From positions 1-39,980 of IMG/VR virus record IMGVR_UViG_3300046170_000328: a DNA stretch of 39,980 nt. One strand, 5' to 3'. Position numbers and translations under genes: made by a program. This stretch comes from a virus. Shown in pieces: positions 36,460-38,517 of this stretch; position 1 is the stretch's first letter; every line of letters starts with the position of its first letter. Below the pieces are notes generated by a model. It made no database searches, was not told the origin of the DNA, and saw only the letters and a program-made list of their open reading frames with translations.

Positions 36460-38517
36460 CTACGGTTGCCCATACCTTGCTTTGAGCTGCTTCAATGTCA
36501 GCTCTGAACCATCATTCGCGACAAACTTACGGATTGCATCCTCTGGCCCGTATTTCTTCACCAGCTTGTTCCAATAAGGGATCCTGCTAGGCCCCAAAAC
36601 ATCGCGCTTTACGTTGTCGCCTTGCTCCTGCAACCATTCCCCATAAGACTGATTTGCCGGAACCGTCCGCGTCTTGGCTGCTTTGCTCATCGGCCCTGAA
36701 ATGATGCCCGGCCTGCGTATCGCGCTAGGTGGCGGTTCAGGCATCCCTAGCGCTGCATAATCGATCTCTGGGACGGTCGTTGATCTGCAGTTGTGAGTTA
36801 AGATGGAGTCAGCGCAATAAGTGCCGCTCTCTGTTTCAAAGTTGTAGACATGCCCGCTAAATGGCTCCCAGCCGATCCAGCAGACATCGGCCTGATTGTA
36901 TCCCTGTTCGACGAGGGCATCGGCGTTCGCGGCATCGCGGATCGCTTCGGCATCTCGCCACGTCCCATTAAGCGGATTATTCTTGAATCCGGTCGCAAGC
37001 TGAGAGACAGGAGCGAACAACAGTTCGCCCGCATGGCTCGCGCTAGTGCCGCTGAACGCAAAGCCCTTACCTCCGCTGCCAACATTGCTAAGCGCGGACT
37101 GCCCAACAGCGACGAAACTTTGCGCCGCATGGCTGCTGCTCAATGCCGCAAGGTCGGACCGCTTGAGGCTAAAGCCAAACAGTGTCTTGAGGAGATTGGG
37201 ATTGACTGCGAGGAGCAGTTCCCGATTGGCAAGTACAACTGCGATCTGCTCTGCACTTTGGGCAATCGACACGTCGCCGTGGAAATCTGGGGCGGTGGTT
37301 GGCACTTCTACGGAGAACACCGTCGGCGATTCCCTGAACGTACGGAATACATCCTCAGCAGTGGTTACAGCATTGTTTTTTTGGTTATTTGCAACGGATT
37401 TCGATGGAATGACATTGCTCGTAAAAACCTTGTCGCCAATATGTACGAGATTGGCAGGCTTCCAGCCATCCGCCGTGAGTACAGGATGGTTTGGGGTGAC
37501 TCTGAGCATGTGACCATTGGCGGTCTTGATGACATAGAGCTGGCCCTTGTAAAACCGACGGTAAACCGCCGCGATCCCGCCACTGGTCGTTACGTGAGCA
37601 TCCCCAGGTAAGCAGTTGAAATGTTGCGGGGGTGTTGGCCCCTTGCCGTACTCAAACACCTGCTGGTCTAATGCCCTACAGCGTGCCGAGGTTCGTGAAT
37701 CCAGCGTTGCAACGTATCGGTACCTCTCGGTGGTCTCAACGTTCGCCTTGTAGGTGGCTTGGCTGGTTGCATTTGCCACCTGATTGACGCTTGTCCTAAC
37801 CAACGTGTTCACCTGATGGTTGGCCACTGCTGTGAGCTGCCCGCCTGCCTGCGCTAGTTGCCGCACTGATAACGGCCCAAAATCAGCAAACTTCAGACGG
37901 CCCTTTAGGCGCCTCGCCATTTGTGGCCCTGAATCACCTGCTAAAAACCCAGACTGAACGGTTTTCGTAAACAGCTCAGCTTGAGATTCAGCGATCCCCC
38001 TGAATGCTTTCGATACGGTCGAGCCATTCGGCAAGGTGATTTGAGCGCCCTGCGTTGCTGTCAGCCTGAATGTTGCCGGCGATGGACCTACGGCTTCCAG
38101 CAGGTCATCAGACAAAACGTTCAGCCCGATCTCAATGGGGTCCGTCATCACGACAGCACGGGCAAAAGCAGGATCGATCTGCAGGGCTCTGACCTGATCA
38201 GCCAGCCGCTCTGGCACCATCTCCAGCAGCTGCGCCCTGATGAACTGCTCCTCGAATGTGGCCAGCCCCTGCAGCTCACCTGCCAGCAACGCGGAGCTTT
38301 CGCCAGCCCAGTTGTCGAGGCTTTCCCGTAGCTGCCTGACGATTTCTCTCAGCCTGGTTTGACGGTCAAAGGCTCGCTCATCTTCGACCAGGATCTGCAG
38401 CTCCGCGACAGCCTGCAAAATCAATCGGTTGTAAGCAATCGCGATCTGTTTGGCCTCAGCATTGCTGAACCTGTTCAGATCGACGGCATGACGATAGAAC
38501 TCAGACGGGGTGCTCAT
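36460..38517 (-). CDS. MuF/gp7-like head morphogenesis protein interrupted by an intein
   Basis: The 685-aa precursor has a helical N-terminal half (extein residues 1-301), including HQVNTLVRTSVNQVANATSQ and LDSRTSARCRALDQQVFEYG, and a C-extein (577-685). Together they match Mu gpF/SPP1 gp7 proteins, which sit at the portal vertex. The diagnostic H-x-N-C-R motif is rebuilt by splicing HFN (299-301) to CRSTTVPEID (from 577). Residues 302-576 are an intein. The spliced protein would be 410 aa, normal for the family. Its start overlaps the portal stop (ATGA). Confidence 0.92.
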   Translation of the reverse strand: MSTPSEFYRHAVDLNRFSNAEAKQIAIAYNRLILQAVAELQILVEDERAFDRQTRLREIVRQLRESLDNWAGESSALLAGELQGLATFEEQFIRAQLLEMVPERLADQVRALQIDPAFARAVVMTDPIEIGLNVLSDDLLEAVGPSPATFRLTATQGAQITLPNGSTVSKAFRGIAESQAELFTKTVQSGFLAGDSGPQMARRLKGRLKFADFGPLSVRQLAQAGGQLTAVANHQVNTLVRTSVNQVANATSQATYKANVETTERYRYVATLDSRTSARCRALDQQVFEYGKGPTPPQHFNCLPGDAHVTTSGGIAAVYRRFYKGQLYVIKTANGHMLRVTPNHPVLTADGWKPANLVHIGDKVFTSNVIPSKSVANNQKNNAVTTAEDVFRTFRESPTVFSVEVPTTAPDFHGDVSIAQSAEQIAVVLANRELLLAVNPNLLKTLFGFSLKRSDLAALSSSHAAQSFVAVGQSALSNVGSGGKGFAFSGTSASHAGELLFAPVSQLATGFKNNPLNGTWRDAEAIRDAANADALVEQGYNQADVCWIGWEPFSGHVYNFETESGTYCADSILTHNCRSTTVPEIDYAALGMPEPPPSAIRRPGIISGPMSKAAKTRTVPANQSYGEWLQEQGDNVKRDVLGPSRIPYWNKLVKKYGPEDAIRKFVANDGSELTLKQLKARYGQP
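36790..37614 (-). other. Intein coding segment, 275 aa
   Basis: Cys1 (37614-37612) starts block A, CLPGDAHVTTSGG. Block B is HMLRVTPNHPVLTADGW with the T-x-x-H pair (341, 344). Block F is GHVYNFETESGTYCADS. Block G is ILTHN with terminal His575-Asn576, followed by Cys+1. All splicing residues are present. No LAGLIDADG or HNH motif is seen in the intein frame. The middle part (about 365-545) is Ala/Ser-rich with a DFHGD motif. The opposite strand of this segment encodes the endonuclease. Confidence 0.93.
36850..37611 (+). CDS. Antisense homing endonuclease (HTH plus Vsr/EDxHD-like) nested in the intein
   Basis: The 253-aa protein has a helix-turn-helix at about 14-45 (IVSLFDEGIGVRGIADRFGI), a helical linker, and a nuclease core at about 103-182: KYNCDLLCTLGNRHVAVEIW, GGGWHFYGEH, ERTEYILSSGYSIVFLVI. 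Candidate active-site residues are Glu106, Asp132, Glu145, His152 and His157, as in Vsr/EDxHD-type homing enzymes. It ends TVNRRDPATGRYVSIPR, with TAA exactly opposite intein residue 2. HEN codon k lies opposite precursor residue 557-k. No ribosome binding site or promoter is obvious. It probably cuts intein-less MuF genes to spread the intein. Confidence 0.85.
   Translation: MPAKWLPADPADIGLIVSLFDEGIGVRGIADRFGISPRPIKRIILESGRKLRDRSEQQFARMARASAAERKALTSAANIAKRGLPNSDETLRRMAAAQCRKVGPLEAKAKQCLEEIGIDCEEQFPIGKYNCDLLCTLGNRHVAVEIWGGGWHFYGEHRRRFPERTEYILSSGYSIVFLVICNGFRWNDIARKNLVANMYEIGRLPAIRREYRMVWGDSEHVTIGGLDDIELALVKPTVNRRDPATGRYVSIPR

Follow-up and report, generated by a model that had tools for sequence, protein, structure and literature searches.

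Mobile inteins such as PI-SceI and TliVMA consist of HINT halves at a conserved insertion site and carry their homing endonuclease within the element, in frame as a domain of the intein. In split inteins, reportedly described by Dassa and colleagues in 2009, free-standing EDxHD nucleases are encoded between the two halves. The EDxHD homing endonuclease family has been described (PMC3943268), and enzymes of the I-Bth0305I type (PDB 3r3p) reside in group I introns or are free-standing. Group I introns in Porphyra carry a His-Cys box homing endonuclease gene on the complementary strand (PMC2585584). Closest in concept among published work is the HNH endonuclease hidden in ShiLan-type insertions, which lies in another frame of the same strand and is accompanied by no splicing domain (PMC11855218). 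That paper cites an intein preprint on a non-canonical architecture with regard to overlapping frames (bioRxiv 10.1101/2025.01.02.630785). The UPWr_S phage paper mentions the intein as well as separate homing endonucleases, but no antisense enzyme.

The element analyzed here, a phage MuF intein whose DNA also encodes a nuclease on the other strand, is assembled from components of known kinds. With PI-SceI and TliVMA it shares the HINT halves, the conserved insertion site and an element-borne endonuclease, but the latter is a separate protein, encoded antisense and overlapping the splicing domain itself. Its nuclease is like I-Bth0305I in catalytic-domain profile and fold, but is overprinted on an intein. 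The pairing of this nuclease class with an intein recalls the split inteins, whereas the present intein is a single unbroken chain that the nuclease gene overlaps. As in the ShiLan-type insertions, a nuclease is hidden in another frame of an in-frame phage-gene insertion, but it is antisense and of the EDxHD class instead of a same-strand HNH enzyme, and the insertion is a real intein with a splicing domain. The Porphyra introns are alike in that the endonuclease gene runs opposite to the host gene; they are RNA introns, however, with the gene in a peripheral P1 extension and no overlap of two proteins. The arrangement differs from all families compared in where the endonuclease is encoded, which is not in frame with the intein, not between the halves of a split one and not in a second frame of the intein's own strand. 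No antisense nuclease in an intein was found in the papers that could be searched, which did not include the preprint named above. On the evidence of sequence comparison and structure models, the locus is very probably a mobile intein with its homing endonuclease gene overprinted in antisense, with the element predicted to splice and the nuclease to cleave.

The DNA was taken from virus record IMGVR_UViG_3300046170_000328, and the window, the whole stretch analyzed, comprised 39,980 bases. On its minus strand an ORF at 36460-38517 encodes a MuF minor capsid/head morphogenesis precursor of 685 aa, matching PF04233 at 1.6e-11, above the Pfam cut-off. Residues 302-576 of this ORF form a complete HINT intein of 275 aa (36790-37614), inserted at HFN/CRS between the N-extein (37615-38517) and the C-extein (36463-36789). 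The preliminary description had placed a complete intein in the MuF protein and proposed family searches of both proteins; its coordinates hold, and the intein N-terminal model TIGR01445 scored above its cut-off. The intein has a nucleophile at residue 1 (C1), TxxH in block B (T40-x-x-H43), a C-terminal Asn (H274-N275) and, at the +1 position where Cys, Ser or Thr is required, a Cys. C1, H43 and N275 were invariant in 60/60 diverse inteins, T40 was nearly so, and Cys+1 was almost always present among the relatives.

The N-terminal half of the HINT domain (residues 1-70, 37405-37614, minus strand) contains blocks A and B with TPNH at 40-43, and the C-terminal half (residues 237-275, 36790-36906, minus strand) contains blocks F and G and ends in THN. 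AlphaFold2 modeled these as two confident halves (about residues 1-69 and 237-275, mostly pLDDT > 90), with block means of 81-97 within residues 1-70. The middle, about residues 130 to 235 (36910-37227, minus strand), mirrors the HTH/helical part of the nuclease and was predicted to be disordered (mostly pLDDT < 50). A Foldseek search with the model returned the VMA, RadA, GyrA and RecA inteins, as expected of a HINT fold. One ORF spans both halves, unlike in split inteins, whose halves lie in separate genes, and between blocks B and F, where canonical bifunctional inteins carry an endonuclease in frame, lies the middle predicted to be disordered, the nuclease being antisense. Judging by motifs and model, the intein would splice itself out and leave normal MuF. 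Longer inteins (about 320-380 aa) were observed in L022-L026, L092 and L102; they are extended where the nuclease N-terminus is encoded, apparently by an added HTH region.

The plus-strand ORF (36850-37611, 253 aa) covers 92% of the intein segment in the same-codon register. Its product had been proposed to be an HTH protein with a Vsr/EDxHD-like nuclease domain, and this was borne out by an HTH at residues 10-46 (36877-36987), an EDxHD/Vsr/DUF559-like catalytic domain at residues 104-181 (37159-37392) with D132 (37243-37245) and E145 (37282-37284), and a C-terminal domain at residues 186-253 (37405-37608), all on the plus strand. A single-sequence query gave only a weak REase_MTES_1575/DUF559 match, and the assignment to known families was made because the family profile matched PDB 3hrl (2.7e-6) and the EDxHD homing endonuclease I-Bth0305I (3r3p, 2.4e-4). 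Among the nuclease relatives Pfam detected the HTH, and REase_MTES_1575 in 32/86. Far from being lost in homologues, R52, Y129, D132 and E145 were conserved in 86/86 diverse relatives, while E106 was kept in 83/86 and H152 in 78/86. The AlphaFold model had a mean pLDDT of 95 and was high throughout except for the first ten residues; residues 186-253, which face HINT blocks A and B, reached about 93-98. Foldseek paired the model with I-Bth0305I (probability 0.98, TM 0.59 on target, E 0.03) and also with Holliday junction resolvases, the best matches having E-values of only about 0.01-0.03. Profile, fold and conserved active-site acidic residues describe a PD-(D/E)xK-type catalytic domain related to I-Bth0305I. 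The intein motif FHGD (111-114) and the nuclease active-site sequence VAVE (142-145) are exact antisense counterparts, at 37273-37284 of the window.

The two ORFs share codon boundaries, so that every codon of the nuclease is a single intein codon read in reverse complement, residue r of the nuclease lying opposite residue 256-r of the intein. The nuclease ATG is the complement of intein His255 CAT, and its TAA stop is the complement of intein Leu2 TTA. The preliminary description had reported this exact register, plus-strand TAA codons opposite Leu TTA codons 2 and 272, and about 24 Ser and 20 Leu codons without TCA, TTA or CTA in between. The two TTA codons are indeed the only stop complements among the 275, and the approximate tally proved exact, with 20 Leu and 24 Ser codons and none of the three avoided triplets; given the codon usage of neighboring genes, the chance of this pattern is about 2e-6 for this copy alone. 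Across the family, antisense stops occurred at 6/43,931 intein-core codons compared with 1,442/67,725 codons in the exteins of these genes, a depletion of more than 100-fold. With the core delimited by a residue-25 limit, 172/177 distinct complete inteins had no antisense stop in it. The five others were accounted for by MuF genes with two inserts taken for one (L047, L154), a stop just beyond the residue-25 limit (L201, L204) and a nuclease with a single stop (L223). Rather than being freely broken in homologues, the plus frame was open in 144/145 cluster representatives; the exception was the lineage of L223 and L224, in which the intein is intact and the nuclease frame has a single stop, a decaying copy as expected in a homing cycle.

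The per-frame comparison of substitution rates that had been suggested was performed over the overlap in 25 close homologues by tree-based substitution counts, pairwise counts having been redone on the tree because they are not independent. The nuclease had a dNN/dNS of 0.11 (0.09-0.15) and the intein a dNN/dSN of 0.29 (0.21-0.38), and both frames are under purifying selection. In the same tree-based counts, events at intein codon position 1 divided by those at position 3 gave 2.74 for the disordered middle, 0.83 for blocks A/B in the HINT N-half and 0.23 for the final 20 residues of the intein, beyond the reach of the nuclease ORF. Intein codon position 1 is nuclease position 3, so that changes in the intein middle fall on the third position of the nuclease, and the codon position that varies switches precisely where the nuclease starts. 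Arg52 of the nuclease is preserved via five codons, whose intein complements read Ser, Ala or Pro. These contrasts show that the nuclease is more constrained over most of the overlap and the intein where the splicing blocks sit, with both constrained at blocks A/B. Of the earlier proposal that two overprinted genes constrain each other, selection on both stood, but the mutual constraint is uneven, and the intein middle (about 130-235) resembles disordered filler whose sequence is molded by the nuclease. Genuine double coding is seen where the HINT N-half faces the nuclease C-terminus and in a short segment at the opposite end. The claim that both proteins keep their motifs where they face each other agreed with the models, in which blocks A/B and the nuclease C-terminal domain are both folded.

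Intein codon choice builds the nuclease stop, start and, in most lineages, Shine-Dalgarno sequence. Leu2 of the intein was TTA or CTA, the nuclease stop, in 104/114 (17% in exteins), and the His of HVYN was CAT, the nuclease ATG, in 99/108 (42% in exteins). The Leu of HVYNL was CTC in 65/78, compared with 20% in exteins and 34% in the intein core; together with the Asn codon AAC it writes GAGGTT, which places GAGG 8 nt before the nuclease ATG. Shine-Dalgarno-like words preceded 75/173 nuclease starts versus 16 in shuffles, some of the starts having been picked automatically and being possibly wrong. In the subfamily of the window itself, Phe replaces the HVYNL Leu and the Shine-Dalgarno sequence is lost, and a search for a sigma-70-like promoter near the plus ORF found none; for these two reasons its expression is putative.

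The 80 loci nearest to the N-extein comprised 70 seamless empty sites, 6 with the intein and 4 that were cut. Empty alleles had an insertion gap of 0 and exteins up to 99% identical, and the element is thus an in-frame, seamless insertion in a conserved site, as is typical of inteins. Some pairs of loci resembled each other far more in the intein than in the exteins; between L041 and L044 the inteins were 96% identical in DNA, compared with 66% for the exteins. Empty sites together with this mismatch of intein and extein similarity show that the intein moves, and it is probably the nuclease that spreads it. A free-standing, unconstrained relative of the nuclease was present in Acinetobacter phage P1068 (L067:2306-3199), convergent with an uninterrupted MuF gene (LPM/CKCRA) whose end it overlaps by 7 bp; it has 12 stops in its own antisense frame. 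This suggests, without proving, that a stand-alone MuF-targeting nuclease in the same orientation preceded the nested form. Close MuF relatives with HFG/CRS, in which Gly replaces the Asn before the site, were all empty (L257-L259, L262, L265, L269, L272, L278, L280 and L281); such alleles could be resistant to homing or to splicing.

Both proteins matched in 68/75 of the first loci, always in the same-codon antisense register. Nuclease-only searches yielded 248 nuclease ORF matches with an intein opposite in this register and 5 without, a tally in which the first loci are included and a contig may be counted more than once; the hosts included Pseudomonas, Gemmatimonadales, Planctomycetota, Firmicutes, Actinobacteria, Chloroflexi and Peregrinibacteria. 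As phages and prophages of many bacterial phyla share the arrangement, a working protein has long been encoded by each strand. Apparent inteins without a nuclease (L068, L069, L071, L075) reflected the detection limit of a single query, and a profile search found the nuclease opposite each (E <= 1e-39). The possibility of other host genes at junctions lacking CR was likewise dismissed, since 8/10 tested N-exteins matched MuF, 5 of them above the cut-off; the remaining 2/10 gave no match.

In the mechanism that we propose, MuF would be made as a precursor from which the HINT intein excises itself, as its motifs and fold predict. The plus strand would be transcribed and translated from the ATG at the block-F His codon into the HTH and EDxHD/Vsr-like nuclease. 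In mixed infections this enzyme would cut intein-less MuF alleles near the HFN/CRS codons, and repair would copy the 825 bp in, as the clean empty sites and the intein/extein incongruence suggest. The nuclease stop is written in intein codon 2, so that the cutter gene lies wholly within the element it would spread. Most of the intein middle is predicted to be an unfolded mirror of the nuclease, and in the models the HINT N-half and nuclease C-terminal domain are two folds from the same base pairs. By running opposite to the late operon, the nuclease gene may be expressed apart from capsid production.

In GC-rich genes, long antisense frames in the same-codon register are frequent, and the plus ORF could on this ground be a chance open frame arising from the codon bias of a functional intein. 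We rejected this reading on the Leu/Ser codon pattern, the more than 100-fold stop depletion relative to exteins of the same genes and the tree-based counts (nuclease dNN/dNS 0.11); the pLDDT of 95, the start, stop and Shine-Dalgarno codon choices and the 12 antisense stops of the free-standing homologue argue in the same direction, leaving it a negligible probability. If both genes are real, the nuclease might still be merely sheltered in the intein and serve to interfere with competing phages or to process DNA, as some phage homing-type nucleases have side roles. We regard this as unlikely, because the ORF end coincides exactly with the intein boundary, the nuclease-intein association is nearly exclusive, and the empty sites are clean and the inteins incongruent with their exteins. 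An active nuclease that spreads DNA while the intein no longer splices, or is tolerated unspliced in MuF, would be in line with a middle evolving almost solely under nuclease constraint. The invariance of C1, H43 and N275 in the 60 diverse inteins and the near-constant Cys+1, the position ratio of 0.23 in the last 20 residues and the modeled HINT halves make it very improbable.

Under the preferred reading of a mobile intein with an overprinted homing endonuclease, the elements would amount to a new architecture for mobile inteins. We think it reasonably likely that they form a large, old and unreported class of MuF inteins in tailed phages, with a wholly antisense homing endonuclease, two folded and selected enzymes on one DNA segment, nuclease start, ribosome site and stop set through synonymous intein codons, and nuclease expression freed by the opposite strand from the late capsid operon. 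Discussions of antisense overprinting of two folded proteins in full codon register usually draw on isolated or doubtful examples; the present one is conserved across about 145 sequence clusters and offers an internal control (the final 20 residues of the intein), empty alleles and assays that can be run separately on each protein. Questions on overlapping genes become directly testable, among them how the same base pairs serve two folds, which of the frames is older and where an intein can vary freely. The phage records opened also reveal an annotation gap. Both proteins are co-located on opposite strands, for example in Salmonella phage VSe103, and the nuclease strand is mostly unannotated. 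In Snoke, an 'intein-containing capsid morphogenesis protein' is annotated and the nuclease is absent from the annotation, and only one record, that of Salmonella phage PK2, lists a protein on the nuclease strand, an antisense hypothetical protein at the nuclease position. Both frames are broken in Salmonella phage GE_vB_HIL (L070, an UNVERIFIED record), which may be a sequencing error. One MuF gene (L047/L128, IMGVR_UViG_3300040801_000142) apparently holds two inteins, each with a nuclease match opposite, and L154/L180 may also hold a second, weaker copy.
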